Source: Geosiphon pyriformis (taxonomy: Eukaryota; Glomeromycota; Glomeromycetes; Archaeosporales; Geosiphonaceae). From it: 64,000 nt of DNA. The notes beneath the pieces are model-generated. The model had not been told where the DNA came from, did not search any database, and saw only the letters and a list, made by a program, of their open reading frames with translations. Shown one piece after another: positions 18,145-61,999 of the stretch. Numbering within the stretch: position 1 is the first letter of the stretch; each line of letters opens with the position of its first letter. A program made the position numbers and the translations under genes. Where the stretch lies: contig JAAOMT010000602.1 in NCBI GenBank assembly GCA_016748015.1, positions 1,502,054-1,566,053 on the forward strand, written 5' to 3'.

Positions 18145-18145
18145 T

Positions 18146-19376: not shown

Positions 19377-19779
19377 GATTCCGATGACTGATTTAAGAAG
19401 GTGAGAATTGGTTGGTGAACAATCATTGCCAATCTCCAGTTTTGAGTGACTTTAGGTCTGAGATTTTTTGATGTCATCTGAGCTGAGTTTGGGGTAAAAA
19501 TTACCAGTGTCTAATAAATTACTTGTGGCTGTGGTGGTTGATAGATTATGGGTGTTATTGGTTAATAGATTGCTGCTGGAGACTGATATACTGGAAGTGA
19601 GTATAATTGCTGTATCATTGGGGTTTGATAAATCAGTTGCATCATTGGAAAATAATGTAATTGAGATTAGTATTATTCTGATAATTAATTACTATCATAA
19701 TTCTGAGTTTGAAGTCAGTAATTAGAGTTTTAATACTAATTAGCTGATCTTAGATTGCTTATCTTTTTTCAACATTTGA

Positions 19780-38028: not shown

Positions 38029-40058
38029 TTAAATTCCTTGAACCACCCTTGGCCATTCTTGACGAATACGTTCAAATAATTCAGGTTTAGTTCGTCTTAA
38101 TGCATCAGGTTGCTCAGCAAGTGCCACAAAGGTAGTTGTCACGCCTGAGTCAATCGCATCAGTAACTACAATCTTTTAAAGCAGTTCGTAAAGTATTGAA
38201 TCAGTGAAATTTTGAGGCAAAGAAGCTCATTTTTGATGAAAAGACATACCGTCATCATCAAACCAAGCAAGAAACATACAAGAACAAGGACAAGTATGCG
38301 CGTGGTGTCGAATCCTGAGGTGAAGATTTTTATATATGCATAACCAAACAGAGCGCATAGAACTCCGATGAAGATGGCGCCCATTGCAAGCACATTTCCT
38401 ATAAGGTTATCGTTGATGATGGCTTCTACACCTCGATCTTTGATCAATGTCCAAGTATCCTTGGCAGCTTCGCAGTAAGACTTGCCGAAAATGGCAACTT
38501 CGAGATTATGCAATAGTTAACTTAAATGATTCTTATAGAAATAAAATTATCAATATAATAATGCCTTGACCTACCTTCCACATAAGCATAATGATTGAAA
38601 TATTCGACCAGGCCTTCTATGCATGACAATATATAAGCGAAGCAACATGCCAAGAATCCCAAGGCCCCATCATCACTGTTGGCAATCGTTCGGAATATTG
38701 CCCTTAAAGTGTTTAAGAGGGCAATGATCAGACTACCAAAGCAAATAGAACCAAGTGACGTAGTGCAAGCGCGCTTAAGTGAGCTCAAAGTGGGGGCAGA
38801 GCCAGTTCCTTGAGGAGTGCCTTCAAGGAAATAATATGCAGCATAGACACCAGCATCGGTAACGTGAACAATTGTTTTTATGACCTGACTTGTCCAGTAG
38901 AAATTGAATAACAAATAAATCATTACAAAGTACAAGTTGTTATTTTTGCAACTGATCTTCCCATTCTCGGTTGACTTGCAATCTCCTCGCTTATAGAACA
39001 ATTGATACCTAAAAGGAATAAATCAATTTAGCTTTAAGTTTAAAATTTAGAAGACGAATAATATTTTTACATACGATCCAACCGCGGCGAAGGCCCACCA
39101 GATCGACCAGCCTACTTGGAATACCAAACCGACGAATCCCATCACAATAGTGCCATAATATTTTTTCGTTATACTAGTGACTGTTTCTAACATAATGGCA
39201 GCAAATGGAATTCTATGTCTCCAACTCCATGCACAAATAAGATAAATTACACCAAAAATTGCAAATATAATGGCCTAGAAAATTGAAACGATAATCAGTA
39301 TTTCGGAGGTATTATAAAGACTTATTTATAAAGAGCTTACTAAAACAAATTGACGAGCAAGCCCATAAATGATAGCTGCGATAAAATAGGTGGCGATCGA
39401 AAGCCATAAAGTAACTTTGATAAGGGGTTTAGGAAAGCGTTGCATCAGTAGCATATAAATTAGGCTCAAGAAAAATCCAAAGACCAGAGAAAGGACCAAC
39501 AACACGATGGATTTGGAATCCAGGTCAATATTGGTTTTACTATCATTGGATGAACGATCATTTATAAATTCTTTGATTCCAAAATAACTTAGGGTTATAA
39601 AGCCAGCAAATTGAATTGCATATAGTATGAGGGCCCATAAATCTAGAAAAAGAAATGAAATCTGTTAAAATTTTGGACAAAGGATGTTTATCATGAGATT
39701 TAAACCAATCGAGAATATACAATATTTTCGAACAATATTTTACATAAATATTCTAAGAGCTTAAAAAAAGGCTGGGATTATCAACAAAGAATGAGGATTT
39801 TCCTTTTCAGCATATTCTCAATTAACTCATAATAATATCTTTCTCAACTCTTTTTGGATTTCACTCACCTTGATACTTTGGCCTAGGATTCCATTTCTCA
39901 GCTACTGGATTTGTGGTTTGCCCTTGTTCATAACTAGGAGGTTGATAACCAGGAACAGGAGCATATGAGGTTGCTTCTGGGGGAGGATAATATTGTTGTT
40001 GTGGGGGAGGAGGATAGTACTGTTGCTGTGGTGGTGGTGGATAATATTGTTGACTCAT
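38029..40058 (-). CDS. PNS1: Pns1/CTL-family choline-transporter-like membrane protein
   Basis: Six exons on the minus strand: 40058-39869, 39642-39341, 39274-39075, 39008-38575, 38497-38250, 38172-38029. All introns are GT-AG with donors such as GTGAGT, GTAAGC, GTATGT, GTAGGT; phases agree and give a 505-residue protein. The N-terminus is a cytosolic Tyr/Pro/Gln-rich repeat (QQQYYPPPP three times), followed by KWNPRPKYQDLW and about ten hydrophobic segments. Conserved family features are FNHYAYVEVAIFGKSYCEAAKDTW and the end VVTDAIDSGVTTTFVALAEQP. This matches yeast Pns1 and animal CTL/SLC44 proteins (PF04515). The family sits in the plasma membrane; yeast Pns1 is a CTL homologue without a firmly shown substrate. 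It is transcribed in the same direction as the HD1-like gene upstream. Confidence 0.92.
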
Positions 40059-40069
40059 ATTGCAAAGAA

Positions 40070-40125
40070 ATGTATTTTTGTCTTCTTATTATACAAAGGG
40101 AGCGATACCAAAAATCAAGCAAATA
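40070..40125 (-). promoter_or_regulatory. Probable core promoter of the Pns1-like gene
   Basis: On the minus strand TTGTATAATAAG lies about 40 bp upstream of the start codon at 40058, in an otherwise ordinary 5' flank. This is a TATA-like element by sequence only. Confidence 0.35.
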
Positions 40126-40594
40126 AAATATCGATTTGGGTTGTAAAGTTTTTTCTTGATTTAGAACTCAATTGGGGCTTTTTATCTTCTCGGAGACAAA
40201 CAAAAAAAACCCGAGTTTGGATACGAAGGAGAAAAATTGCTAAAAAGCCACAAATCTCTTGGGCATTTTATCAACCACTATGATGGACCTCATGATTGGC
40301 CACAAATTTTAAGGATTAGTTACACTTGTGCCAAAATAAAATCTAAATATGTGCATAATATTTATCGACTATTGATAAGCCCGAAGGAAAGGTGGGCTTG
40401 GACGATGAAATGTGGGGTTTTTATATTTTGATTCGTCACTTCAAACGCGTTACGTAAGTCTTTTTGCTTTTATTTGGAAAGTAAAAAAAAATACAATATA
40501 TACACTAATTACAAAATTGCGAAATGAAAGGTTATATGAATCGAACTAAAATAACTAACCATTATTTTGGTCAATTGGATAAATTGTCTCAATT
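40126..40594. other. Intergenic region between Pns1-like and HD1-like genes
   Basis: Contains the 3' end of the HD1-like gene and the upstream region of the transporter gene. Small ORFs on the plus strand here are unrelated to any family I know and overlap expected regulatory DNA; I leave them out. Confidence 0.4.
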
Positions 40595-41626
40595 TTAAAC
40601 TTGGGCACTCCCTCTTATCCTTACACTTTTTGCTTTTCCTCTATTACTCCGAACAGGACCATTGGAAGTTGATTGAGTACCGGTAAGTTTTGTTATACGG
40701 GCTTTTCCCAACTGCCGTCCGTATTTTATGGCACGATAAAGCAATGCTTCATGAGCCTTTTCAGTCTCTGTTTTTTTGAGATAATTTAGACTTGTTCTTA
40801 TGTACCATCGATCAATGTCTTGTTCAGAAACATGTGTCCAAAGTGATAATAAGTATCTCTGTTTCTTGTCAGGTTTACGAAGGTTGTTGTCGAGCAAATA
40901 TTTAATCAACCATAAAGTCGTTTCTGGGTCAATTCGATCACGCGTCTTTTTTAAATCTTTCTTCAATTCCTTTCGAAAATTCTCAGAAGGGATTCGAAGG
41001 AGATTTATAGTGGTTTCCGCAAATCTACTATGGGAACCCACCAATTCATCAATAATTTCGTTTTGTTGATTACAAAGTTCGATAATTTTTTCTGAAAGAC
41101 TGCTCATAATAGCAAGAATCTCAAAATCCAATTGTGTTTTACCTCCCTTGGGAATTAGAAGATCCATTTCATCTGTAAGTTTCAACAAGTTGGATAAAAA
41201 TTTTGAAACATTCACTGAAGTATAAAAATTGTCTCGAAAATTAAGCAACTCCATCAGTATGGGAAAAAGTGGGTGGCTTCCAAATCGTTCGTTATAGAGT
41301 CTTAAATTTTCAATTATTTGAGTTTCTTTTTGGTCTGGGAGCTTCCTAGCTGTAAAGCTATTCAAATTAGAGTTTCCTGCAGAGGATTTTTTCCTATTAT
41401 CCTCTACAAAATGTTCGGTTGTCACTTTGGAAGAAGCACTTAGAAATGAAATAGTTGTATTTATTGGTTTTTCTTTTAACCCACTTTGTAAATGGTTTTT
41501 ATGGAGTGATTCGTAAGAAATGCTTGCATTCCCTAGCTCGAAGAAAGTTAGATCCAAAGTTGGGCTCAAAGAATCTCCTAAAGGGCGTGGATTGTGGAAG
41601 CGGGTTATGCGTTTGTTTTCTTCCAT
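40595..41626 (-). CDS. HD1-like divergent homeodomain protein (candidate mating-type gene)
   Basis: A single open frame of 343 residues, no intron needed. Residues about 105-215 are helix-rich, as in the dimerisation region of mating-type HD proteins. Residues about 226-285 align with a homeodomain: a first helix TLWLIKYLLDNN, the loop Pro (RKPDKKQR), and a recognition-helix segment DIDRWYIRTSLNYL with Trp274 at position 48. The spacing from the loop Pro to Trp is the canonical 23 residues. However, positions 49-53 read YIRTS, not FxNxR, so the invariant Asn51 and Arg53 are missing. The basic C-terminus (GKAKSVRIRG) could be a nuclear localisation signal. It is divergent with the HD2 gene across 464 bp. 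HD1-like is inference from context and weak similarity; a non-DNA-binding partner is possible. Confidence 0.65.
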   Translation of the reverse strand: MEENKRITRFHNPRPLGDSLSPTLDLTFFELGNASISYESLHKNHLQSGLKEKPINTTISFLSASSKVTTEHFVEDNRKKSSAGNSNLNSFTARKLPDQKETQIIENLRLYNERFGSHPLFPILMELLNFRDNFYTSVNVSKFLSNLLKLTDEMDLLIPKGGKTQLDFEILAIMSSLSEKIIELCNQQNEIIDELVGSHSRFAETTINLLRIPSENFRKELKKDLKKTRDRIDPETTLWLIKYLLDNNLRKPDKKQRYLLSLWTHVSEQDIDRWYIRTSLNYLKKTETEKAHEALLYRAIKYGRQLGKARITKLTGTQSTSNGPVRSNRGKAKSVRIRGSAQV

Positions 41627-42090
41627 TTTAATCTCAAGTTAACGATTTCTGTTGAAGGATCAAAATGGATAAATCTTTTGCAAAATATTGGCCCTGAACT
41701 GAGGTTTATTAGTTATTTTATCTTGGGTTGGAAAACAGGAGTTTAGAATAATCAGATGAGGAGAGAGAGAAGTAATGGAAAAATTCCCTAAATGCATGTT
41801 TATCATGTAAATCTTAATGTATTATGGGTCTCAATCTTTGATAATCGATCTGATAGGATGACAGCTATTGTAGTCCAAATATCGTCTTCCTGCCGAAATA
41901 TCGTTTCTCCTTGTTTCTCATTGTTTTTTTTTGGTTTCAATCAGGATTATTATCAAAATTATACAAGCAGAAGGAAGGTAAAGCCTCCTGATTTCTGAAG
42001 ATAAAATCCTGCTAAGATCGCTCCCGCTGACTCTCTAACACTTAAAGTATAAAAAAGGATGAATATGGTAGATAAGTTTTATACTAGACC
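41627..42090. promoter_or_regulatory. Shared divergent promoter of the HD1-like/HD2 pair
   Basis: 464 bp separate the two start codons. On the plus strand AAGTATAAAAAAGG (about 42045-42060) lies some 35-45 bp before the HD2 ATG and may be its TATA element. No clear repeat or operator was seen. Divergent regulation from a common spacer is typical of fungal HD mating-type pairs. Confidence 0.5.
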
Positions 42091-43548
42091 ATGGAATTAA
42101 TTCAACAAAAAGTTGTCGCATACAACCACATAAGAGAACACTTTTTGAAGATCAAACAAGCTGTCTCTGACTCTAGCTTTAATGATGAAACTATTTTAAA
42201 AAACCCACTTCGCATTCAATTATTTAGGCATCACGGTTATCAACTTGAGTCTTTTACGAACGAGATTAATTTTCTAAACCTTTTTCAAAAATACCTTGTT
42301 GATCAAACTATCTTCACTTTAATTTCTACTGATTTTGAGCACCCTGACATAAGTGAAAGCTATGAAAAAGTCAACATTCAAGCAAAATATTTTGAGGCAG
42401 TAAATAAACTTCGTCAATACATTGAACAGACTTGTCTTGAACGCAAAATTGATGCATTAAAAAACTATTTCATTATTCCCTTTGGAAATATCGCCCATTT
42501 GCAAACAATTATGATTAAAATAGAGCAAGTCTTTATTAATTTGTTCTTAGAAACACTATCGGAATATCGGAATACCATACGCTTTCAATTTTCTGAATTA
42601 TTAATTATAAAAAGACCTTTAACAATTCCACACACAGCCTCAGGCCGCTTCAGTAATGAAACCAAACAAATCATGGAAGAATACTTTGTAGAAAGAAACG
42701 ACCGACCTGATGCTAAAGAAAAGCAAGATTTGAGCGGCCAAACAGGTTTAACTATAAAACAAATCGAGACTTGGTTCAACAACCGAAGAAGTCGTTCTCT
42801 TAAAGATGATACCTGCGACAAAGATACGATAGGATTTATGAACAAAGAAATAGATTGGGATAATAAATTCTTCAAAATTGAAAAAGAAGCTGGACAAATC
42901 ATTGAAAGAAAGGAAATTGCATCCTGCGATCTAACTTATTATGATGCGTCTGGAATAACCACCATTGACGTCACTCCTTCACAATTACCCATATCATCAT
43001 TAGTACCATTTTCTTCCAAAAATGGCCTCAATCTCCGACTAAACTTAAAAAAAGAGGCACATAGAATAAAAAGTGCACCATATTCAAAATCATTTTTTTC
43101 ACGAGCTGAAAAGAACTTGGCCAACAAAAACGCCTCTGAAATTTATCAATCCGATTTGATTAAACAACAGTTAAATATCACAAAAAATAATACAGTGTCT
43201 AAAAGTTCCGGTTGCGTAATTGAAACAAAATCGCTTGAAAAATCAGGCATTGACCAAGTTCAAGAAACATATTCAATCCTTGATAATTCGCTTACTTGGA
43301 CGCGAGAAAAAATTTACCCAACCTTTAATAATTCGCTGACATTCGTTCCCATCAGTAATTTAAAAGTTTCACACCACCCCAATAAAGTCACAGCAAGTTC
43401 ATTTGCAGAACCTTATGGATCCTCTCCTAATTTTCCCAGAAGGTTAGTAGAGCAAACACCAACATACAATCCTGAATATTCCGAAATCGGTTCACAAACC
43501 ACTGAACTTCTTATTTCTCCTCTCACGTACAAACCCCCTATCAATTAA
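42091..43548 (+). CDS. HD2-type homeodomain transcription factor (candidate mating-type gene)
   Basis: A single frame of 485 residues. Residues 1-170 are predicted to be mostly helical, as in the dimerisation domain. Residues 181-240 form a typical, non-TALE homeodomain: GRFSNETKQIMEEYF in helix 1, DRPDAKEKQDLSGQTGL through the turn to helix 2, and IKQIETWFNNRRSR in the recognition helix, with Trp228 (position 48), Phe229, Asn231 (51) and Arg233 (53) all in place. After residue 245 the protein is Ser/Thr-rich and likely disordered, as in activation regions. No intron is evident. The start at 42091 is the first ATG after the promoter element. Divergent with the HD1-like gene and close to a phosphatase gene. 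Family identity is firm; mating-type role is inferred from the pairing. Confidence 0.9.
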   Translation: MELIQQKVVAYNHIREHFLKIKQAVSDSSFNDETILKNPLRIQLFRHHGYQLESFTNEINFLNLFQKYLVDQTIFTLISTDFEHPDISESYEKVNIQAKYFEAVNKLRQYIEQTCLERKIDALKNYFIIPFGNIAHLQTIMIKIEQVFINLFLETLSEYRNTIRFQFSELLIIKRPLTIPHTASGRFSNETKQIMEEYFVERNDRPDAKEKQDLSGQTGLTIKQIETWFNNRRSRSLKDDTCDKDTIGFMNKEIDWDNKFFKIEKEAGQIIERKEIASCDLTYYDASGITTIDVTPSQLPISSLVPFSSKNGLNLRLNLKKEAHRIKSAPYSKSFFSRAEKNLANKNASEIYQSDLIKQQLNITKNNTVSKSSGCVIETKSLEKSGIDQVQETYSILDNSLTWTREKIYPTFNNSLTFVPISNLKVSHHPNKVTASSFAEPYGSSPNFPRRLVEQTPTYNPEYSEIGSQTTELLISPLTYKPPIN

Positions 43549-43871
43549 TCTTTTAATCCTTTTATCCCAAATATCTTCAAATGAGTTTATCACCAAATGG
43601 CCAACGTAAAGGTTTATAAAGTTGCCCAGGATTTCGCCTCTAAATGGTTATTTACCTCACTATAATCTCATATTCGAAAAACTGCATTGAGAATTCCTAG
43701 TAGAGAATCAAAATTTTTGTTGGTACATACATATTTTCCTGGACATTCGCAATGATCGTGATGACAATTTTTTATCATGGAAAATCCACGTGAAATTATG
43801 AGATTATCGAATATTAAAATCAAAGTTAAAAATTTTTTCTCAATAAACTTTATTCACGAGGAAATATCATT
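43549..43871 (+). promoter_or_regulatory. Spacer between HD2 and the histidine phosphatase gene
   Basis: 323 bp containing the HD2 3' end and the phosphatase 5' region. No TATA box is obvious. No further ORF is supported. Confidence 0.35.
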
Positions 43872-44924
43872 ATGTTAAAAACTATTTTCTTCACACGAGT
43901 ATGTTCTTTGCATCTTTTATTCACGGCATAATTTCAAGGATCATTTTTCTCTGAACACAAATATGCATAAGTTTATCAGGTTCACACTAACTGCTTGGCT
44001 GCTCATTAGCATGGTCATCGTGCAGACTGGATAACCCCAGACGACGAAGATGTTGTGTATCCCACAGGCCTCAACTGGGACCCTCCCCTCTCTCGGCACG
44101 GCTGTGAACAAGCCAAAGAACTTGCTCAATACTTTGTTGATAACAATATTAAGATCGATCGAATTTTTTCCAGTCCATATTTTCGAACTTTGCAAACTGC
44201 AAACGCAGTTGCCGAGGCTTTAGATATCGATATTTGCGTTGAAGATGGTCTGAGGTTTGATGAAAATCCAATAATATTACTTATCTGTTCAAATTTAGAG
44301 CAAAAATTATATTAAATCAGTTTGGATTTGATTTTCAATAATTTCAAATTACTTATAATATCAATTTGGGCTTATTTCCAAGTTTTTAACATAAAAATAA
44401 TTTAAATACCTTCTCTTTGTAGTGAATGGTATGGCCTTCATCGAATATTTATACCAAGTGCTGCCCCCATATCAGAACTTGAACTATTTTTCCCTCGAAT
44501 CAATACTTCTCATACTTCACTTGTTCAACATCCGAGTGTTAGTGAAACCATTCAAGATATACATGGGCGTCTTTCAACCACCATGCGCAAATTAATCGCA
44601 CTATCTGATGTAGATCCTAAAATCAACACTGTTTTAATAGTGACCCATGCGGCATCCTTGATAGCCGGGGTCAGAGCTGTTTTAGAGGAAAGATACGCTT
44701 CTATTGGTAGCGCCACATGTTCATTAACGGAGCTGATAAGAAGAAATGAAAAATGGGTGATGTTACGTAACGGAGATACTTCATTTATGTCCAGTGGGCA
44801 AGAAAAAAATTGGACCTTTACAGAACCGAATGTGACTAATGATGAAATTGAGATAAAAGGCACACTACCAGCTACCATGGAAGACGAAAAAGGACAAATA
44901 AAAAAAAGTACACATCTGCTCTAA
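43872..44924 (+). CDS. Histidine phosphatase superfamily protein (phosphoglycerate mutase-like)
   Basis: Three exons: 43872-43898, 44010-44254, 44423-44924, giving 257 residues. Intron 1 (43899-44009) has donor GTATGT, a CACTAAC branch site and acceptor TAG; intron 2 (44255-44422) is phase 2 with donor GTTTGA, less typical. The first exon codes for only nine residues, and splicing creates the catalytic motif FTRHGHR (Arg9, His10, Gly11). Other active-site residues are Arg68 (FSSPYFRT), Glu92 (LSEWYG) and His166 (VTHA). These define the branch-1 histidine phosphatase fold, with the fungal TFC7/YOR110W-type arrangement. Substrate is not predictable. Its joined reading frame is supported by motif continuity across both introns. 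The frame is ordinary in composition, unlike the AT desert that follows. Confidence 0.88.
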
Positions 44925-47859: not shown

Positions 47860-49240
47860 TTTTTTAAAATTTCAATATTTCTACTATATAAAAATAAATA
47901 TTCAAAAAACTCAATCTTATCACAATAAAAACACAAGACATTATAATTACATTTATTATAAAATCACTTCTAAACAATAATTAACAAATATTAATTTAAA
48001 AATTTCATATAATATAAATGTAGTTTTACAATAAATTTACTTATGTAACTTAAAATCATATATAAATTAAAATACTAAACCAAAAACAATTTATTTCAAT
48101 TAATATCTTCTATTAAATTTTCTATAATTATATTAATATTAAAACAAATTTTTTAATAAGTTTAATTTATAATTTTAGAAACATTTTAAACAAATAATAT
48201 ATATTGTTCAAAACAATTATACTAATTGCTTTGATATATTTTTTATAAATATGAACAGAAAACATAAAACCAAACTAAAAAGCAGTATCAATTAGTATAT
48301 TAGTTTTTATATTATTTAAAATACTAATATAATTTTTAATCTTTAATTAAATAATATCAAAACTTTTATTTTTTATAATATTTACAATATAATATTTTTT
48401 TAATTAACAATAACTATAAAAATTTGACAAATTTAAACTTAGTTTAAAAAAAACAAAGTTTAAAACAATCTGGTTATTAAGATATATTATTATTAAACTA
48501 GAAATAAAAATATATTTTAAAACTAAAACAACTGCTTACAATTTTATAAGTGTTAAAAAAAGCAAATTATCTATTTTGATTCTAATATTCAAATTTATAT
48601 TAACAAAAAATACAATAATTGTTTTTCTTATTTTTAATAAACCAAAATATTTTAAAGACTTATTTATATAAACATTAATAATATATAAATTAATACTAAT
48701 AAAACTTTTTTTACTAAAAAACTTATTAAAACTAGTTCTATTAAAAGAATATAAACTACCAACTAAGAAAATATGATATAATAAATAATAAAATAACCCA
48801 AAAACACAATAGCCAATTTAAATTAATTAGAAACAAAGTCTTTAAAATCAAGTTTTTCTTAATAATAAAAGCTTTTTCAATTAAATACTGTATTGTTTTT
48901 GGTAAAAAGCTGTTTTACAAAAATAACACCAAATCTTTTAAGTAAACATAAAACATTAAAAAATATAAAACTTTTTAAAATAACAAAGATTAAAGTATTT
49001 TTAAAGAAATAAAACATAAAAAGCAAATTATTCTTAAGAGAAAAATCAAAATTTTAGAATAATTTTACAATTTTAACCAAAAAATTGTTTCTAAAATTGA
49101 TTTTTAAATTAACAAAAAACTATAATAGATAATTGAAAAACCAACTTAAAACTTGTAAATTCAAAAATTTATAATTAACAGTTAATTAAAAATATTATTA
49201 ACATTTAAAAACAATACAATTAAAACAATTTTATATTCTG
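47860..49240 (-). pseudogene. Highly decayed LINE relic (copy IV): post-RT region, RNase H, C-terminal zinc-like block
   Basis: Minus-strand frames recover LINE ORF2 blocks in correct order. From right to left: INFRNNFLVKIVKLF (about 49077-49116), LLKRFGVIFVKQLF (about 48910-48945), IIVFFVNINLNIRIKIDN and AVVLVLKYIFISSLIIIYLN (48470-48645, RNase H), SYISKFIVKLHLYYMKFLN (about 48000-48060), and NVLCFYCDKIEFF with CFYC (about 47900-47935). Each aligns with LINE copies I and II (for example FLKRFGVAFCNRLLDK and VVLALKCTYFFCTVVVYLN in copy I). Frameshifts, stops and Ile/Phe/Leu/Asn-biased replacement show extreme transition-driven decay. Confidence 0.75.
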
Positions 49241-50994
49241 TTTGTACTTGCTTAAAAGTTTTTAATTTATATAAAAAAAAGTAATAAACAGTTTTATTTA
49301 AAAAAATTTTTGATAGGCCAGATTTTATTTTTTAATTTTTTTTAATTATTTATAAAAATGTTATTTAACAAAAAAAACAACTTGTAATATTTAAAATATA
49401 TTAAAATATAGTTTAATTATTTTCAATTTAAATTGTGTTGTTAATAAAAACACTTATTGTAAAAAAAAGTCAAGCCAATTTGTTTTTTAATCTTGTTAAT
49501 CTTAATAATAAACTTTGTTTAAGTTTAATTATTAAAAATTATGTTATATTATTAACTAATTTTTTTAATAATTTTTGTACTTATAATTAAAAACATTATT
49601 AAAAAATAACAATCTTACTTATTAAACCATTTTTTTAATTAATCTTGAATATTTTGTCTTTTTTTATAATATTTTTTTGTTATAACATATATTATTTAAT
49701 AAAAAGTCTCTAAACAATATTATAAAAGTTTAATAGTATTTATAATTTTATAAAAAATTAAATTTTATACATATTTAAAATTATATATAACTGTTTTTTT
49801 TGTTTACTTAAATTTATTAAAATAATCTTATATCTTATTTTGAAAATTATATTTATTAAAATATTAATATTTAGATTATTTGAATTATTAAATTTTATTA
49901 TTTCAAATTTTAAATCTTTAGTAATATTAGATAATAAATTTATTTTGATAAGTTAGAAAATAGAATTGTTATATATATATAGTTTTATATATTTCTTTAA
50001 ATGATTATTAAACTTAAACAAATTTGTAAATTTCAAACCAGATCTAAATTAAATTCGGACTTGTTAAAAAAATTTAACTTTAAATTTAAATTAAGCTTAC
50101 TTTAAAAATTTGGTTTGGTTTAAGTTTAATTTATAATTTAAACTAAACTTAAACAATATTACAAAATTGTTTTTTTGATATATTATTTATTAATATTTTT
50201 ATTTTATTATAATAAGTTTTTTATAAGTTTTTAATTCTATTTATGTAAAATATTAATATTATGCTAAATATTTTTTTGTTAATATTATAATGTAAACTAT
50301 TTTTTAATTCTTAATTATTGTATATATTTATGTATTTTTTCTTAAAAGCTAATTTAAAATCTATTTATAATAATAAAATATTTTCTAAAGCTATTTTTGC
50401 AATTGTTTAATGTGTTTTTCTAATTTAAAAACATAGAATATTAATATTTTTTAGTGCTTTTTTTAATTTTTACAATAGAATTTTTATTAATTAATAATAA
50501 TTTTAATAATTTAAATAATTTTGATTAGAGATTATTTATCTAAAAAATTTAATTAATTAATAATAGTTTTATTTAATAAATAAAACAAGTAAATTTTTAA
50601 TGTTTTAATTATAATACTTTAGTTTTTAATATTATTTCTTATTTTTTTTTGATTTAAAGATTTTTTTAAAGATTTATTTAAAAGTAAAAATTAAAAGATA
50701 ATTAAAGTAAAAGATTGAATTATTGGAATTATTAACTTGTTTTTTTTTAATATTAAAATTACTATATATATATATGTTTATAGTTTTATAAAAAAACATA
50801 TTATAATACTTTTTTTTTAATAATTTAATATAATACTTATCATTATTATAAAATAGTATTTGCTGTTATTATAATTTTTTACTAAATTTTTAAATTATAA
50901 CAACAGTATTTAAAGTTTAGTTTAGTTTTATTTATCAAATAATTTTATCAAATATTAAAAAACTTTGTTTTTTTAAACCTATTTTATAATTAGA

Positions 50995-51090
50995 TTTAGC
51001 CAATCAAATTTAGCCAATCAGATTTTAGTTTTATAATTAACAATAATATTTTTAACAAAATTTATTATTGTTAAAAAGTATATAAGCTTT
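50995..51090 (+). promoter_or_regulatory. Relic LTR promoter (two CCAAT boxes, TATA box)
   Basis: Two CCAATCA motifs (51000-51006 and 51014-51020) are followed 60 bp later by GTATATAAGC (51078-51087). This spacing is that of an RNA polymerase II promoter, and it precedes the gypsy relic. Confidence 0.45.
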
Positions 51091-51902
51091 AAATAATCAG
51101 TCTTTAAATATAATATTTTTATATAAAACTATATATAAAACATTATTATAAATACTTAACAAAAGTAAATATAATATTAAAAATATAGAACTATAAAAAA
51201 ATAATTACAAATTATCAAATTATACTAAATTTAAAAATCATAAAATAAATTTTGATTTGAATTCCAATACAACTACTTTAATATTTAACAATAAAGATAA
51301 AATTTTAAAGTTATAAAAATTCATTAAAATTAAAATCACTAATAATAATTAAAAATTTGGATCCTTATTTAATTATTAAAAATTTAATAAAATATCTGTC
51401 TATATTACTTTTAGTTAATTTATAACTTATTTACAATTCTAAAAAATCTTTAAAAATTCTTAATACCAAAAAAAACAATTTAAATCTAACAAATATTCTT
51501 AATATTTAATATTAATTTTTAATAATAATGTTATTTTTTTTATTTACAAAGTACAAGTAGTTAAATATTTTATAGATTTTAGATAATGATTTTTTAGTTA
51601 GTATTATAACTTAAAATTTTTTAGATGTATTTGAAAAAAAAGTTAGTAAATTATTAATTAAACTAATAATTAATGTTTATAAAAACAAAAATAAAGACCT
51701 AAAAATTATTAAAGCTGTTTTACTCAAATTAATAATATATATATTAAAATTGATATAAAAGTATTCAAAATTCAAAATTATATTATAATATTAAAAATAA
51801 ATAATTAAAAAAAACCAAAACTTTTTTTAATTACAAGTTTGTAAACTTATAATTTGTAATAATTAAATATTAATACTAAACAATATTTTTTATAATAGCT
51901 TA

Positions 51903-51955
51903 ATAATAACAACAACAATAATAAAACAACAATAATAAAACAACAATAATAATAA
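51903..51955. repeat. CAACAATAATAAAA-type microsatellite
   Basis: Repeats of AACAACAATAATAAAA occur three times in 50 bp. A simple low-complexity repeat. Confidence 0.6.
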
Positions 51956-53739
51956 TTTTAAAATTTTAAAAACTTTAAAAAAAAACAAAATTAGTCTTTA
52001 CTATTATCAATAATAATAAAAAACTTTTAAACAATATGTAAAAAAACAATAAAAAGTTAGTAATCAATAAAAAATTTAAATATTGCCTATATTATAATAT
52101 GCTTTGAAAAATATTTAAACAATAATTAGAGAAAAAAATTATTAGTAATATGATTTTTATGCTCAAAGTTAATATAACTACTTTTTTTATTTTTTAAGTA
52201 ATAAATAAATATTATGTTTGATTTTTTTTTAACATTAAAAACCAATTAAGTTAATTTAATGAAAAAATTAAGATTGTACAAAAAAAAAGTACCTAAAATT
52301 CAATTATTAATTATTAAGCAATCTAGTAAAAAAACTAAAAAATTAATATTAAAAATTTATTAATAAAAAATAAACTAATAATATTAAAAAAAATATTCTG
52401 AATGAATAAATTTTATTTAATATGTAATTAAAACCAAAAATATCCAATTTATTTATTTGAAATCTTATTAATTAAATTGTTAAAATAATAAATTTATTAA
52501 AAAAAAATAGATTGTATAAAAAACTTAAATTTATATAAAAAACTTAAAATAAATAGATATTTTTAATTGTAATAATATTTTAAAAAAAATTCAATAATTT
52601 TGTATTAATAACTATCAATTAAATACATTATTAAATAAAATATATATTTACTTTCAAAATTAACAACATTTTTAATTATTTAAAAATTCAATTTATTTTA
52701 CAATAATTAATTTAACTATTGAAGCTTGGCAAATAAAAATAGATTTTGTCAACAAAAAAAACTGTTTTTATTACAAAATATAGAACTTATAAATTTATTA
52801 TAATGTTTTTTAAATTAATAAATAAAGTATTTAAATCAGAACATTAGAAGTTATTTTCTGTATATTTTAAAGATATAATTATATATTCAAAAACTAGGAA
52901 TAAATATTTAAATTACTTTTAAAAAGTTTTTAATCTTTTTAAAAATATTAAACTTAAAATTAATCTAATTAAATCATTTTTTAAATAATAATCTACCTAG
53001 TTTTTAGATTATCTTATAACAAAAAATAAGATTAATTCAAAATAAAAAAATTGTAAAAACTTAAATAATTAATGAATATTTTCAAGTTATAATTTTTTTA
53101 AATTAGCTTTTTATAATTAAATATTTTTTTAAAATTACATATCTATTTAATTAATTTTTAAGAAAAAATTTTAATTATTATTAACCAAAAAACATTTAAA
53201 ACTTTCAAAGAAAAACTTTTTATTAAGTCTATTTTAAAACAACCCAATTTTAACAACTTATTTATTTTTTAATTTAATGTTTTTTTTAATATTATTTTGT
53301 TTTAAAAAAAAAAACATATTATAGTCTATAATAGTAAAATTTTTTAACAAACAAAAAAAAATTACACAATTACTAAAAAATATATTTTATGTTATAATCT
53401 TTTGAATATTAGTATAAATATTTTTTTTAAAAAATTTAATGTTTATATTAAAACTTAAGTCTTAATTTAATTAAAAAACAAAAGAAAACTAAATTATATA
53501 TTTAAATAAATATAATTAAAACATTAAATATTACAAAAAAACAGATTAGGAATAGTTAATTATATTATTTATTAGTAATTTATTTTAAATTAAACATGAT
53601 AATAAACTTAAAAAACTATTAATATTTATTAAAATATAATTAATAAAAAGAAAATATTTGTACAAATAATTAAATTTTTATTTAATTTACCAAAACCAAT
53701 TATATTGTTATAATTAAAACTTTTTTTTTAGCTTTTGTT

Positions 53740-53905
53740 TTATTTAGCTATAATTAGTTATATATATTAGTTATTAATATTATTAACTAATTATTCTAAT
53801 TATAGAATTAGTTATTAATATAATTATTGATTTAATTAATAACTTAGTTATTAACTTAATTAATAACTGAATCATTAATATAACTATTAATCTGATTATT
53901 AATTT
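53740..53905. repeat. Imperfect array of TTAGTTATTAAYWT-type units
   Basis: TAGTTATTAATAT and its partial inverted forms (ATTAATAACT, AATTAATAAC) recur about ten times, giving a region able to form several AT hairpins. It lies near the proposed 3' LTR of the gypsy relic. Confidence 0.4.
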
Positions 53906-54942
53906 TTTTTAAAAAATATATAAACAAAACTTTTTAAAACAATAAAAAAGTATTTATATTCAAATTATATTTAAATTAATTTTTTTTACTATTTATTTAT
54001 TTTTTTAATTTGTATAATTATTAGTTTTTGTAAAGTATATTAAATAAATATTTATTAAAAAATACAATTAATATCTGATATTGAATTTTAAAAATAGTAA
54101 TATAAGACATAAAATTATATTAATATGTTATTTTTTGTATACAATATAAATTATTTTTTTATTTTCAAACTTTTTGTTACTTTTTGAAAAGAATAACAAC
54201 TAAAATATTTATAAGACTAATTTTGTATATTGAATTTTTACTAATTTAATTTGCTTATTAAAGTTAAATTATCTTTTAATTATTTTTATTGTTATATAAT
54301 ACTGTTTTTTATTTATTTATTAATGTATTATATCTAACTATAATAATATGTTATTCAAATTTGTAACAATATTATAAAAACATAAAACAGAAACAAAATC
54401 AAATATAACAAAAAATATTGTAATTTTAAAAAATTAGCAAGCTTAATGTAATTTTAATATTTTTTAATAATCAATATTAAACTAATAAAAATATATAAAA
54501 TAAAACCAGATTTATTTTAAACTGATTTAATTTTTACAGTTTTATTAAATTTTAAAATTAGAAATTATAATAGTTTTTAAATATTATTACAAATAATAAT
54601 ATTTTCAAAAAACCATTTTTTTAAATATTTTAAAAAAATTAATAACAATTATTTTTAAAAAAAAGTTGTTTTTTGTTTTTTTTGCTATTTAAATAGTAAT
54701 AAAAAAATTGTTAAAAAAATAACAGCTTGGTTATTAACTTGTTATTAAAGATTTTAAAACTTTTAATATTGATAAAAAAATTAGATTAAAATTAATTTTA
54801 TTTGTTACTAAAAGAAACTTTAAATAAAAAAACTTTTTTTTAAAGCCAAAAAAAATCTTTTATTAATAGTTAAAAACTGTTTTTTATTTTTAATATTTTA
54901 AAAAATGCTGTTTTATTGTATTTTTTTATTTTTTTATTTATT

Positions 54943-55028
54943 TAACGAGTAAGACCCAACCACCACTTAATACAATACATCAAACTAAGTGATCTAAACT
55001 AGACGCGAATCACGCATTTTTCTACATT
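54943..55028. other. Ordinary-composition island with CpGs in the AT desert
   Basis: TTAACGAGTAAGACCCAACC to CGCGAATCACGCATTTTTC is about 85 bp of far higher GC content than the kilobases on either side, with several CpG dinucleotides. No ORF, tRNA or recognised repeat. It could be a transposon terminus or a recent short insertion. Confidence 0.5.
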
Positions 55029-56144
55029 GTTTTTATTTCCAAAAAAACTATTAACTACAATAAAAAAGAGCTGTTTTTTTATTTTTTATTTTAAGTATAA
55101 TTAAAAAATTATAAAAGAAAAAAGTTTTAATATTAAGTAAATATTTTTTAAAATATTATTATAAAATATAATTTAATTAATATTTTCTTATTTATAATGT
55201 ATAAATCTTTTATTAAATACAAATTATTATTTTTTTAAATATAACTAATTATTTAAATAATTACAACATATTATTATTATTAAAAACACTTTATTTAAAA
55301 TTTATAATTAACTAAAATTTTAAATAAATTAAATATTATTAAAATATTTTAGTATTATATTTAAAAAATATTTACTGTTAAATACTATTTAAAAATAGTA
55401 ATTGATTTTATTAAAATTCAATTATTATTAAAAACAAATTAGTAGTTTATATACATATTGTTATTAAATAAAATTTAACAAAAACTAATTAATAATTATT
55501 ATCCTTAATAATTACTTTTATATAATAAAACAATAATTAAATTAATTAAAAAAAATACATAGTATTTAGAACAGAAAAATTATTATTACTACAGATTAAT
55601 TTTTAGAAAAAAATTTTTTTTAATTAAATTTTATAAAACAAAATTCGTAAAGAAAAACAATTAAAATTTAACTAATATAAAAAAGCATTTTTTAGTTTTA
55701 TAAAAAAAACTATGTAATTACATTTTTAGTTTAACAAAATTTTAACAAATAAATTTTCAAGGTTTTTAATCAGTTTACTAAAAAAAAATTTTATATTCAA
55801 TAAAAATTCTTTAAAGTATTCATAATAATATATAATATCTTTATAGATAATACCTGCAATGAAAATAATTGTTTAATTAAATATAAATTTTATTTTTACA
55901 TGATTTTTAAAAAAATTTGTAGCTGTTTGGAAAAATATTACAGGTTTTAATGTATTTAATAATTTTTTTAAAATAGACTAATAATAATAAACTAAATTTT
56001 CTGAATTGTTTTTGTTTTTAAAATACTTAACTAATAAATAAATCAATATATATATTATAAATTACAATTTTTCTTTTTTTTAATTTTATAACAATAAAAA
56101 TCTACCCAGTTTTTTTTATATAATTGACTTTAGTATTGCCAATA

Positions 56145-56616
56145 TCAATTCAATTTAAGTTGATTATAAAACAGAATACTTGTCAAAAAAATTATTTGCA
56201 AGTTTGTTATAAATTGGAAACTTCTTGTTAAGTATAATTTTTGTTTAAAATTACCTTTGGTATTGGTGTTACATGATTCTGACTCACAAGATATTAAAAA
56301 AAATAGTTTTTGAATTATAAAAATATTTTTAAAATCTGGTTTTCCATCTAAAAAATGCATGTAGAGTTTTCATAAAATTTTGCAAAAAGATTTTTGCTAT
56401 TAAATAATAAAAGACTGAAAGGTTGCAGGTAACAAAAATTTTTCTAAACTTCACATTTAGAAATGTACTTTTGATTTCAAATATTCAATTTCTAAGTTGA
56501 TTGTTCACAGGTAAATGTAAAATCTTTCACACATCATTTCATCTATTGAATAATTCAATGATAATTTCAGAATGTGGACAAAAAACCAACGCTAAAAGAT
56601 CATGCCTGCTATCTAA
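56145..56616. other. Boundary region after the AT desert
   Basis: Composition returns to ordinary here. A 71-codon minus-strand ORF (56145-56360) has no family similarity that I recognise and I do not call it a gene. The promethin-like gene ends at 56617. Confidence 0.35.
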
Positions 56617-57234
56617 TTAATGACTAAAAGGGGTAATAGCTCCACCGCGCCGTTGACCGGGACGTCCACGACCAGTACGATTCATATGATCCTCGATTTT
56701 TTCGTCCCATTCCCTAGGAATAATCCCTAACCCAGATAACACATAATATACTGCTTTAACTCCAACATAAAGGAAACCTCCAATTAAACCTCCAATACTC
56801 GCGATAAACAATAAGACCCCAACCACTGGGAAGAATACCAATCCACCTAAAAATGCTAAAAAACCTTCAGTACAAATAATCCCAATACCAGCAATACCGA
56901 CAACGATAGCGCAAGTCAGGGTGATCCAACCAAGTAAAACAATGGTCGGGATTGCAGCAAAGGTTCCAACTATGTAAGTAAACCAACGAAAGAATGGATT
57001 ATTTTGCCAAGCATTGGTGAGAAAATCAATTATCGGTTGAATAGCTGCACGTGGATTTGTAAGGATGATTTTAATGATGCCGGTTGTAGCGCCAGCAGCT
57101 TGTTTGACTTTAGTTGCAGCCGTTGAGGCAGTGTCTTCAAGTTTCTCTATGGTTTTTGATGTTATGATTTCGACTTTTTGTGCTACCTCCTCAGCTTCCA
57201 TGCCAGAGAAAGGTGATACCTGGGGTGTAGACAT
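56617..57234 (-). CDS. Promethin/LDO-like lipid-droplet membrane protein
   Basis: Single frame of 205 residues. Residues 1-80 are cytosolic with an amphipathic stretch (EKLEDTASTAATKVKQAAG). Residues 81-172 are an unbroken series of hydrophobic segments separated by small Gly-rich turns (IAGIGIICTEGFLAFLGGLVFFP, then IASIGGLIGGFLYVGVKAVYY, shown here in pieces by position). The C-terminus is basic (GRGRPGQRRGG). This architecture fits promethin/LDAF1-type proteins and fungal Ldo16/45 relatives (PF16015), which sit in the ER and lipid droplets and help droplet formation with seipin. The pattern match is good but rests on hydrophobic layout. It has a promoter-like TATAAATA 113 bp upstream. Confidence 0.7.
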   Translation of the reverse strand: MSTPQVSPFSGMEAEEVAQKVEIITSKTIEKLEDTASTAATKVKQAAGATTGIIKIILTNPRAAIQPIIDFLTNAWQNNPFFRWFTYIVGTFAAIPTIVLLGWITLTCAIVVGIAGIGIICTEGFLAFLGGLVFFPVVGVLLFIASIGGLIGGFLYVGVKAVYYVLSGLGIIPREWDEKIEDHMNRTGRGRPGQRRGGAITPFSH

Positions 57235-57346
57235 TTTAGAAAAAATGTTTTTCTCAAGTGATATAGAGATTTAAGAAGTTTTGATTTTCTTTCAAGTGTA
57301 GAAAGAGGAAAGCTTTAAATAAAGTTTAAAAGCGACAGGAGATAGG

Positions 57347-57354
57347 TATTTATA
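57347..57354 (-). promoter_or_regulatory. TATA box of the promethin-like gene
   Basis: The minus strand reads TATAAATA about 113 bp upstream of the start codon at 57234. This is a textbook TATA sequence at a plausible distance in an AT-rich genome, so moderate weight only. Confidence 0.45.
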
Positions 57355-57399
57355 CTTTAAATCAAATAGAAAAATCTCTAAAAAACCCTAAATCAAACC

Positions 57400-59441
57400 G
57401 AGAGAAAGGTTTGATCATGATTTTTCGTTAAATTGAAATCAATCAAAGAATATTGCTTGACATATGATCTTTGACTCATACATTTCATTTAAAAGGTTTT
57501 AGAGAGGATCCCTTTGATGATAAATATATAATTTTTTTCTCAAGATAGAGTAAAGACAAACTTTTTACTTTGAAAAAAAAAAAAAAAAATGCTCAAAACG
57601 ATTTGAGCGATGGTATCAGAGGCGTCGTTAATACTGTTTTTAGAGTTACAAAAAGTAAAAAAAAAAACAAAGTTTAGTCCAATTTCTTTGAATCTGATTA
57701 TCATCATTGAGCATGATTTATAATAATGAATTCTTAATAATAATCATTATTTCATTCAAATGTCATGATGAAGTAAAGTTTGGGAAATAATCTTACTACA
57801 ATTTATCATTAAAATATAACCGCATAATTAAGAGATTTGGATAAATAATTTCCCATAGTTATTCTCCGAAATCAGGAATAAGATCGTTTTTAATGAATAA
57901 GCAAAAATAAGAATTAAAATTTGTCAATAAAAATGTTTGATCCTATAGTTTTTTAAAACAAATTAGGAATTTTTGGTAAATTATTTTTCAAAAATGAATT
58001 TTTTTTTTTAAAATCAAATAGTTTCCAATTTTCTAATCTATTATACAAGAACATCAATTCGCGACGTATGGATCATCCATGGGATGGCCCGTGTTTTGGG
58101 GGTAGGTCCTGATTTATGGATTAGTATTAATAATAAGCAACGGATCGGGCAATCGATCAGAAAAACATATCAAGAACGCTTATGAAATTAATTTTGATGG
58201 TCATAAAAATTTTCAAAATTTTTTTTTTTAGAGACAAATAAATTGAGTCGAAGAATTTCTTCAATAATTGAATACAATTGGATTAAATAGATAGAATAAT
58301 ATTATTTTAATAAAATTTATTTTCAAATTTCTAACTAATTGGGTCATAAAAAAATGAATTTTAAAAAATTTATTTATTTTGAATTTTTCCAGACAAATTA
58401 ACTTGTAATTTTAAAAATCACAGAAAAAAATACAATTCGTATATTCATAATATGGATTTAATAGACCAGTGGATATTAAATTTACTTTGATAATGAATCC
58501 AAGTTAAGTTTAGCCATAAAGTATATAAATTGAAATTATCTTTCTAGCAATCATAAATTGAAGTTTAATTTGTTTAAGCCTAAAAAAAAATTAATTTCCA
58601 TCATTCATAAACAAACGACTGACGTTGTGCTATTTTGGGAGTACTCTTAAACTTTTAATTTATTTGAAACCCTTTTTCATATTTTTTAATTTCTTTAAAA
58701 TTCAAAAACACCCCCTCCCCCCGCATTTGGAGTCATAGATTTATCGTGGTTGGTAAAAAAATTAAATTTGATTCGTTATATAACAAAAAATTGTTTTCTT
58801 AAAAAGTTTTTTTTAGGAATGTTTATTAGTCAGCTCATTACGATATAGGCATATATTTTTTCTTAATGTACACACAAATAATAAACTGAAAATAAAATTC
58901 TTTTTTCTACATGTTTAAGACTATAAATGAAAATATGAAAGTTCCAGTCTAAATTTCTAGAATAAAAATTTTAACTCTGAGCATTCGAAAAGATTGACAC
59001 ATATAAATCCTCTTTGTTATGATTCTAAAAGAAAATTCGTGCATGCTAACAACCATTTGGAAATAGTGAGACTTTATCCTGAAATTTTTTACGGGAACAA
59101 TGAATCTAATCTTCAAGAGTGTTAATTAATTAATTAATTAATTAAGTAAAAGGTGTAAGCAAAAAACATATTCTAATATCATTATTTTTTTTCGATTCAT
59201 TCTTTCAGATTTCGACAGTAGAAAATTTTATTTAACCTAGTTATCCATAAAATTTTATTTCTTCAAAATAATTTTGTGCTTTAAATCAAAAATGGGAATT
59301 TTTTAAATGTAAATCTAAATATATATAGTTTTTATAAAGAACATGTTGATATGACATAAAAATTTGATAAAAGAATTCTCACTCTTGAGATCTAACCTCC
59401 TACTACTCTAATTAATCACTTTACTCAATTCAATAGAAATA
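57400..59441. other. Intergenic region, no recognised gene
   Basis: About 2 kb. Contains an A17 tract at 57572, a C-rich run at 58710-58723, a (TTAA)n repeat at 59121-59145 and a higher-GC patch at 58060-58190. In that patch an ATG at 58084 opens 33 codons (MARVLGVGPDLWISINNKQR...) with ordinary coding composition; it may be an exon or a fragment of something unrecognised. Nothing else stands out. Confidence 0.4.
59121..59145. repeat. (TTAA)n microsatellite
   Basis: Six TTAA units in a row starting after GTTAATTAATT. A simple repeat. Confidence 0.9.
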
Positions 59442-59994
59442 TTAAGTATTCAAACACTTAGAAGATTGACTATTTTTATTGTAGTTTCCTTTAAAAGTTT
59501 GACTCGTAAAAGTACAAGTAGTACCTGGTGCAGAACCGTTAATTTTAAAATAAAAGGATCCAGTCTTAGATTCAGGACCAAGATTCAAAATGAAATACGG
59601 AGTTGACAGCTTTTCTACAGGAACTGAACCCCGGTATTGCCTTTGAATAAAAGTCCCTGTGGACAGGTATAAATCGACCGTATCTATTGTTTGTACTTGA
59701 CTAAGTCCTTTATTCCATGAGACTTGGTAACATTGTCCTGTTGAAATGGAGTTCAAATTCCAAGGTTTTAATCGCAAAAAAATCAATAAAAAAAAATATA
59801 AAATTTCTCAACTTCTTTTTTTTTGCCTTGAAAAGAAAACCAATATTGTACTGACCATTTGTAAAAGATATATCATTTTGATTTGGTCCTGGTGAAGTAA
59901 TAATGAGTCCATTACATGAATTTTGTCGTTTTTCCAAAGGAATAGCGGTTAAAAGACACACAAAAAAGGTTAATATCACCAAAAATATCTTCAT
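59442..59994 (-). CDS. Small secreted protein, Kre9/Knh1-like (paralogue 1)
   Basis: Two exons: 59994-59856 and 59737-59442, giving 144 residues; the 118-nt intron has donor GTCAGT and acceptor CAG, phase 1. I start at the ATG 59994 (MKIFLVILTFF), not the upstream ATG in frame, because it gives a clean signal peptide (residues 1-18) and a Kex2-type KR site at 22-23. The mature part reads NSCNGLIITSPGPNQN, then after splicing NGQCYQVSWNKG and a beta-rich domain with STPYFILNLGPESKTGSF and a final Cys near KCLNT. This is the Ig-like fold seen in Kre9/Knh1 (PF10342) and many small fungal secreted proteins. Probably extracellular or wall-associated; an effector role is possible. A related gene follows at 60629-61205. 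Confidence 0.78.
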
Positions 59995-60045
59995 TTTCAA
60001 AAGTACTTGTATGAATAAAGTATTGGGATTAAATTTTAATTTCAA

Positions 60046-60628
60046 AAAGTTTCCAGGATTTTTAATTTAAAAAATTCTTTTACTATAGTAATTTTTATAA
60101 AGGTATTTTGTGAAAAATGTGGTTGACAAATTTTTTTTTTCCCAATCCATTAAAAATCTGGTCATTTTATAAAGAATAAGCCAAGAGGGCTTATTAAGTC
60201 AATCATTGTGCGAAACGAAGATTAAAACAAGTTTTTTTTTTTTTTTTTCTTGTTCTATTATTGTTCAAGGCTGGATGCTCTACAAAGCAATCAAAAACTC
60301 TAAAGGAAAATAAACTAACTTCTAAGGCGAAAGATCTTGTTCTACCATTCCAAAAATATAATTCTCAATTATATCAAACCCCACATGTTGTGTTCATGCT
60401 AAAATTGGAGATTATAAATGAAAATTCAAAAATAAACTTAATACAGAATGATTATTTATAAAAATACATCTTTAAAATTAAAAAAAAAACTTTTATATTT
60501 AGATGTATTTGAAAATCGCTCGATTGGTTGATAATAAAAAAAAAAACATAAAAAGTTTATACATTCTCTTTGTAAATTACATATTTAAGAATTAATAGGC
60601 TGCTAAAAAGTTACATTTTGAAACGAGC
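60046..60628. other. Spacer between the two secreted-protein genes
   Basis: 583 bp, including poly-T tracts near 60231-60250. A 66-codon plus-strand ORF at 60261-60461 has no recognisable family and lacks a promoter-like sequence; not called. Confidence 0.35.
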
Positions 60629-61205
60629 TTAAATTTCTAAACATGTGTTAGGAATATTATTTAGATTAAATATTCCTTTAAGTTTTATGTAAGGCACGTC
60701 ACAGTATTTTGTATCATCACCATCTTTAATCTTTGCAACAAGAGCCAACAAGTAATCACCACTTTTTTGTTCAGGGCCAAGATTAAGAGGGAAGAGCGGG
60801 GTTTGTTGCGGAATAGTTGCGTCACCAAATATTGAACCGCTCCATTGGTTTACAATGAAATTTCCATCTGTATCTAATAAATTAACATCGGTAACTTCTA
60901 TACCCCTACTGCGACCGGCATCAAATGAAAGTTGATAACATTCACCTGGAGTAGTAAGATATATAAAATTTGAAAATTTAGTTTTACCCACTTAATTTCC
61001 CTCTCCTTCTGACCTCACCCCCCCCTCTCCCCCTCTCCCCCTGTAAAAACAAATTTTATTCACCATCTGTCCATGGTCCTGCTTCATCAACCGGAAAAGT
61101 GATACGAAATCCAGTACAAGTAGGTTTTTGAATGGTCTGTCGTTTTGTAGGAAATGCCAACAAGAGAGGAATCATAAAAACGAGGAGAAAAACCAGAGAT
61201 TTCAT
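60629..61205 (-). CDS. Small secreted protein, Kre9/Knh1-like (paralogue 2)
   Basis: Two exons: 61205-61064 and 60945-60629, giving 152 residues; the 118-nt intron is phase 1 and placed exactly as in the paralogue at 59442 (before the GECYQLSF / GQCYQVSW block). Signal peptide residues 1-19 (MKSLVFLLVFMIPLLLAFP), KR at 21-22 as a likely Kex2 site, Cys30, then FRITFPVDEAGPWTDG. The C-terminal domain has PLFPLNLGPEQKSGDYLL and ends TCLEI with a late Cys. Same family and likely destination as paralogue 1. The intron carries an unusual G-rich tract on the coding strand (61011-61042 on the plus strand, C-rich). Confidence 0.8.
61011..61042 (-). other. G-rich tract in the intron of paralogue 2
   Basis: On the minus strand three runs of five or more G separated by AGA, with a final run of seven, about 20 bp inside the intron after the donor. 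It can form a G-quadruplex in DNA or pre-mRNA. Effect on splicing is speculative. Confidence 0.6.
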
Positions 61206-61325
61206 CTTTTACTTTCAATTTTTAATAATACGTGTGTGTGTGTATAGTGAATTCTTTTTGATATAATTTTGCTGATTTGAAAAGGATCTCTTTTATAAAT
61301 CATTTTCGCTTTAACAAAAAATGAT

Positions 61326-61544
61326 TTATTTTCTTTTGGTAGGGTAAGGTTCATCCTTCACAAGATTGATGACAATTCGTATTAGAAACAATAACATTAA
61401 TACAAATAAAATAAAAACATTATAAAAAAAATAATTTCTTGTCAATTTACCACTGTGAATCCCAAATTGATAAAAATAAAAGCTCAAATTTCTACTTTTG
61501 AAGACATGAAAATAACACATGGTTATTCTTCTATAAGGAAACAA
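61326..61544 (-). CDS. Small hypothetical membrane ORF
   Basis: 72 codons with one clear hydrophobic segment (VFILFVLMLLFLIRIVINLV) and a basic, Kex-like end KDEPYPTKRK. It has no homologue that I recognise and no upstream exon that I can join. It may be a chance ORF or the last exon of a small gene. Confidence 0.25.
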   Translation of the reverse strand: MFPYRRITMCYFHVFKSRNLSFYFYQFGIHSGKLTRNYFFYNVFILFVLMLLFLIRIVINLVKDEPYPTKRK

Positions 61545-61959
61545 TGTCTTTTTTAATTTCTCATGTTTGCAGTTCTTTCAATCGAGGAGATTGCTGTGTT
61601 CCGACCAGCCACTTAAGGCTATTTCACACAACAGCCCCGATTGCCCAAAAAGTCAATTTTTTACCATTTAATTGTTTTTCAAAAAATTGAGTCGACCATT
61701 TCCCACTGAAAGAAGTTTAAGCTAGTTTTGTTTTATAAAAATTTTTGTCATACAATTAATAACGTTGAATTCATTATTAGAATTTCTTGGAGGAAGTGAA
61801 TATGCAGTAGTGTCTTACTTGAAAAGTTACACAACGTGATGAAAATAATATTTGATCAACTTTTGATATTCACAATTATACCATATCGAGAGGTTGTTGG
61901 GTTTTATAAAAAAAAAATTTGATGAATTAAAATAAAGTAAAAAAAAAGATTGTTCTTGC

Positions 61960-61988
61960 TTGATTGATTGATTGATTGATTGATTGAT
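61960..61988. repeat. (TGAT)n microsatellite
   Basis: Seven consecutive TGAT units after CTTGCT. Simple repeat. Confidence 0.9.
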
Positions 61989-61999
61989 TAATATATCAA

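Follow-up and report, generated by a model that had tools for sequence, protein, structure and literature searches.

A divergent HD1-like/HD2 gene pair as a putative mating-type-like locus of a Glomeromycotina genome

Sex in arbuscular-mycorrhizal (AM) fungi is an old question, and the homeodomain (HD) locus is one of the main genetic handles on it. By the account in PMC7490403, this locus has been confirmed in Glomerales and Diversisporales and not in Gigasporaceae, while a search in Funneliformis, as described in PMC9560946, did not identify it with confidence. No report of this locus in Geosiphon was found in the open-licence library that was searched. Here we ask whether two divergently oriented genes, HD1-like and HD2, located in a 64-kb stretch of contig C300 (the whole stretch analysed, referred to below as the window) of an assembly of 124.7 Mb in 406 contigs, constitute a mating-type (MAT)-like locus, and whether their products may act in nuclear compatibility. 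The comparison of sequences indicates that the locus is very probably a homeodomain MAT-like locus and a homologue of the one proposed as MAT in Rhizophagus irregularis, since the layout of the genes, the sequence of the third helix of the HD2 homeodomain and a choline-transporter-like neighbour all agree.

The HD1-like and HD2 genes

The HD1-like gene (40595..41626, minus strand) and the HD2 gene (42091..43548, plus strand) are each composed of a single frame without an intron, comprised of 343 and 485 codons, respectively (the coordinates include the stop codons). Their starts are separated by 464 bp (41627..42090), a region which, by its position, may serve as a shared promoter. This head-to-head arrangement, including the lengths of both frames and their spacing, exactly matches that given in the original prediction. 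Each start is preceded at close range by an in-frame stop that fixes its position, four codons before the ATG in HD1-like and one codon (ACC) before it in HD2. In 200 simulated 64-kb windows matched to the local dinucleotide frequencies, no stop-to-stop frame was longer than 219 codons (the mean of the maxima was 145), so the two frames are not the product of chance.

HD2 contains a canonical homeodomain (42646..42795, plus strand; residues 186-235), which matches PF00046 with an E value of 1.8e-11 and 44.1 bits (Pfam cut-off 22.9). In the usual homeodomain numbering, the characteristic residues are Trp48, Asn51 and Arg53, and all three are present in helix 3, within the sequence WFNNRRSR, as had been predicted from the plus-strand frame. 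An alignment with six other homeodomains of the same genome revealed one additional residue in the first loop of the HD2 domain. The solved structures nearest to HD2 in sequence are the Extradenticle/PBX homeodomains (best E value 6.9e-6), with yeast MATa1 placed lower among its relatives (E value 0.0026). The genome contains ten matches to PF00046, which correspond to nine genes if two neighbouring pieces on contig C346 are parts of one gene. A search for relatives of HD2 in the viral_contigs set produced 10 pattern matches, none of which was confirmed.

The HD1-like protein carries, near its C-terminus, a degenerate homeodomain-like segment (40769..40948, minus strand; residues 227-286), in which a tryptophan equivalent to Trp48 is retained, while the positions of Asn51 and Arg53 are occupied by Arg and Ser, respectively.

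Similarity to the putative MAT locus of R. irregularis

In R. irregularis, the putative MAT locus (KT946687; HD2, KT946661; HD1-like, KU597387) contains HD1-like and HD2 genes in opposite directions (PMC7490403), and the same divergent pair is present in the window. A second point of similarity is the recognition helix. The primer SJR, taken from a survey of the R. irregularis MAT locus (PMC11414155), reads TWFNNRRN in one frame, and the recognition helix of HD2 (42768..42794, plus strand) reads TWFNNRRS, so that seven of the eight residues agree; in seven further homeodomain pieces from the same assembly, only 4 or 5 of the 8 residues are shared with the primer-derived peptide. At the nucleotide level, this helix is the best SJR site in the window (22 of 27 bases; the runner-up has 18). 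When 32 loci of the assembly were scanned, the three that contain HD2 reached 22 bases and the remaining 29 reached at most 19.

The third point is the gene next to HD1-like, which is transcribed in the same direction and encodes a choline-transporter-like protein (38166..40058, minus strand; the first exon and the introns were placed by eye). Two of its exons match PF04515, with E values of 1.8e-38 and 8.6e-21. The annotation of KT946687 in R. irregularis includes a flanking gene of the choline-transporter-like type (PMC9560946); the likeness between the two neighbours is at the family level. Only two genes of this family were identified in the 124.7 Mb, the copy in the window being the better match (178.9 bits), and the number expected by chance within 5 kb of the HD pair is approximately 0.0002.

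Taken with the markers of the host genome described below, these data uphold the original view that this is the MAT-like locus of a Glomeromycotina genome. It is a further member of a known and disputed type of locus, complete and with a conserved family of neighbour gene. It perhaps lies outside the orders from which such loci have been reported so far.

The locus also differs from that of R. irregularis in that only a single allele is known. Genome-wide searches identified one match for HD2 and one full-length match for HD1-like, together with an additional weak match of the latter (E value 0.057) interrupted by two stops, and thus no second allele or paralogue of either gene was found in the assembly. 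In dikaryons of R. irregularis, both copies of the locus are reported to reside on different contigs (PMC9249182). In view of this difference, it is probable that the sequenced strain is a homokaryon or that the assembly lacks the second allele.

Proposed mechanism

It is rather likely that the HD1-like and HD2 proteins together form one transcription factor. In such a factor, HD2 would supply the DNA-reading helix and HD1-like, whose contact residues are gone, would be the dimer partner, its basic stretches providing nuclear import. Productive pairing might then be restricted to HD1-like and HD2 proteins from different nuclei, by which the locus would report the presence of two compatible nuclei in a common cytoplasm. 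Of all the steps, this control of nuclear compatibility, proposed by analogy, is the least certain, and we consider it doubtful. A single-haplotype MAT-like locus, whose products may act as a joint factor with nonself pairing, is nevertheless the explanation of the whole that we favour, with moderate confidence.

In common with the HD loci of basidiomycetes, e.g. the A locus of Coprinopsis cinerea, the locus contains a divergent pair of genes and an HD2 protein with a canonical homeodomain. It differs from them in that the HD1-like protein has no homeodomain scoring above the Pfam cut-off, and in that the neighbouring gene encodes a choline transporter. Linkage to mip1, the gene for mitochondrial intermediate peptidase, is a hallmark of basidiomycete HD loci. 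The HD1-like protein has an isoelectric point (pI) of 9.64 and contains two motifs of the simple nuclear-import consensus K-K/R-X-K/R (KKTR and KKQR) as well as a basic tail, whereas HD2 has a pI of 7.65 and none of these motifs. In C. cinerea, as reported in PMC4915694, (i) the homeodomain of HD1 is dispensable, (ii) HD1 holds a nuclear localization signal, (iii) HD2 is devoid of such a signal and (iv) the homeodomain of HD2 is required. The pair in the window shows an apparent division like that described for the A locus (PMC4915694), with DNA reading on the side of HD2 and the basic stretches on that of HD1-like, and it is this parallel asymmetry in pI and motifs that suggests the roles of import partner for HD1-like and DNA reader for HD2.

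The disputed mating role

The same conserved locus may have no role in mating, and may instead be a co-regulated transcription-factor module that functions in growth, sporulation or vegetative recognition and is maintained by purifying selection. This is a quite possible alternative, short of being probable, and several reports on R. irregularis weigh on its side and against nonself pairing. In PMC11414155, the trees of the MAT locus, of a phosphate transporter and of the whole genome were congruent, with fewer nonsynonymous than synonymous substitutions (dN < dS); its authors rejected a mating role for the locus and discuss asexual ones. In coexisting isolates, no HD2 reads were recorded and HD1-like showed no significant change (PMC7490403). 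Moreover, according to PMC12712441, the known heterokaryotic AM strains number only five, and all of them are R. irregularis. It is on account of these three sources that nuclear compatibility is ranked so low above, and the single copy of the HD pair in the present assembly is also in keeping with a locus that has no mating function. On the other side, HD2 and HD1-like were the sole orthologous groups common to the dikaryons A4 and A5 within the criterion set applied in PMC9249182 (regions with a drop in coverage, two copies in a dikaryon and one in monokaryons).

Alternatively, sex could be run by HMG-box genes, perhaps those located beside a STE3-type receptor gene, with the HD pair as a bystander; we consider this unlikely. 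Scoring of 150 out of 153 candidates yielded 118 HMG_box matches in the genome, and HMG genes are reported to respond to coexistence in R. irregularis (PMC7490403). The sole STE3 gene found is followed within approximately 14 kb by four HMG-like frames, but, with HMG genes so numerous, this proximity may be due to chance. The region in question (contig C303:334859-349822; L030, L031 and L032) comprises the STE3-type pheromone-receptor gene, then a ferric reductase gene and the four tandem HMG-like frames, three of which are among the 118 matches and the fourth of which was recognized by eye. In the sexM/sexP locus of Mucoromycotina, an HMG gene is situated between the genes for TPT and an RNA helicase (PMC7490403). 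The present locus shares with it the broad fungal lineage and a genome in which HMG genes are abundant, but has a homeodomain in place of the HMG box: none of the 118 genome matches lies in the window, and the nearest one on contig C300 is approximately 148 kb away.

The HD1-like protein

A further alternative holds that HD1-like is no homeodomain protein. The whole protein matched no Pfam family at E ≤ 10. When residues 209-300 were scanned alone, PF00046 was found with an E value of 0.045 and 14.0 bits, i.e. under the cut-off of 22.9, and an unrelated Pfam family ranked slightly above it (E value 0.017). The degenerate homeodomain-shaped segment of the original prediction is plausible as a weak, sub-threshold similarity of this fragment.

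Against a profile built from seven homeodomains of this genome, including that of HD2, HD1-like scored 12.4 bits. The highest scores in two sets of 2,000 shuffles were 5.3 and 6.2 bits, and the next best among the control frames of 201 kb was 2.4 bits. The score fell to 3.2 bits once HD2 was removed from the profile, which argues against a homeodomain origin. A low-confidence model of the fragment has helices with the length and spacing seen in homeodomains, and its top matches in the PDB are homeodomains, below the usual level of significance. The AlphaFold2 (AF2) model of the full-length protein had a pLDDT of 38.4, and was not used.

The poor full-length model, the lack of a whole-protein match, the rank of the unrelated family, the dependence of the profile score on HD2 and the weak fold matches would all fit an unrelated helical protein that merely shares a promoter with HD2, the latter acting alone (as a homodimer or with other factors), but this is quite improbable given the fragment match to PF00046, a profile score above all shuffles and other control frames, the homeodomain-type helices and a position beside HD2 that reproduces the layout reported for R. 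irregularis (PMC7490403).

The host genome

Three features of the assembly identify the host as a member of Glomeromycotina, a placement that is well supported. First, the HMG_box family is expanded; Riley et al. 2014 reportedly name an HMG expansion in their title. Second, ketoacyl-synthase matches in the genome are confined to one split gene, and there is thus no candidate for a type-I fatty acid synthase; an apparent loss of fatty-acid synthesis genes in AM fungi and Geosiphon is described in PMC9560946. Third, the one copy of the 18S gene that was found contains the sites of the AM primers AML1 and AML2, with one mismatch each. The genome is AT-rich (28.3% GC in approximately 257 kb of sampled stretches, some of which overlap). 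Table 1 of PMC9453076 lists Geosiphon with 129 Mb and 29.25% GC, and other AM genomes given there are similar in size and GC.

Among the lineage primers, ARCH1375R fitted the 18S copy best (2 mismatches in 25 bases), followed by ARCH1311 and ACAU1660 (3 each), AM1 (4), LETC1670, GIGA5.8R and GLOM5.8R (5 each), and PARA1313 and GLOM1310 (6 each). The true fit is worse at some of these sites, because the best sites were misplaced. This fit gives a hint of a placement in Archaeosporales. Passages from PMC11336396 offered no diagnostic barcode for this order. The host is very likely a species other than R. irregularis, judging from the 22 of 27 bases of helix 3 that agree with SJR and from at least 6 mismatches of the 18S gene to the Glomeraceae primer GLOM1310.

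Should the host belong to an early-diverging order (Archaeosporales, perhaps Geosiphon), the HD pair with its choline-transporter neighbour could tentatively be placed near the base of Glomeromycotina, and HD1-like might all along have been a dimer partner that does not read DNA. The locus sharpens the idea that DNA is read by HD2 only, and this additional complete copy provides one more sequence for the design of allele surveys and interaction tests.

The 18S copy is located at the end of contig C320 (L029), in a stretch of which over half reads N. Relative to the primers WANDA, AML1 and NS8 it has 2, 1 and 1 differences, respectively, all of them C-to-T or G-to-A, and it looks as if decayed by deamination; the difference in the AML2 site is of another kind.

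The intergenic region and other features of the window

A TATA-like sequence, AGTATAAAAAAGG, was noticed by eye approximately 45 bp upstream of the HD2 start. Sites of HD heterodimers (TGAT/ATCA, the U. maydis bbs and the a1/alpha2 type) were not enriched in the intergenic region relative to 500 shuffles. The string GATAATCGAT, which is also located between the two genes, was chosen after inspection of the sequence, and is not counted as evidence for an operator. An Rfam scan of the whole window yielded 0 matches.

The next gene past HD2 encodes a putative histidine phosphatase (branch 1), one exon of which (44406..44924, plus strand) matches PF00300 (E value 1.2e-4, 22.2 bits; cut-off 21.7). 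An upstream exon, located before approximately position 44290, was recognized by eye.

In the left part of the window, a 304-aa frame containing a dUTPase domain (17233-18147; PF00692, E value 2.1e-13) is situated near retroelement-like frames. Two minus-strand frames of 136 aa with identical translations (19041-19451 and 21396-21806), retroelement-like by eye, are spaced 2,355 bp apart, and the sequence between them includes a short run of N; this arrangement points to a recent duplication or to an assembly join. The G+C content drops to 11 to 12% at positions 48001-56000, compared with 34% at 40001-44000 and 28% at 56001-64000.

Expansions of BTB-TLD proteins are a feature of AM fungi, and similar genes occur near the locus. 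To the right of the window, contig C300 encodes TLDc-domain proteins (L017:7778-8971 and L021:1040-1885), one of which also contains a BACK domain.
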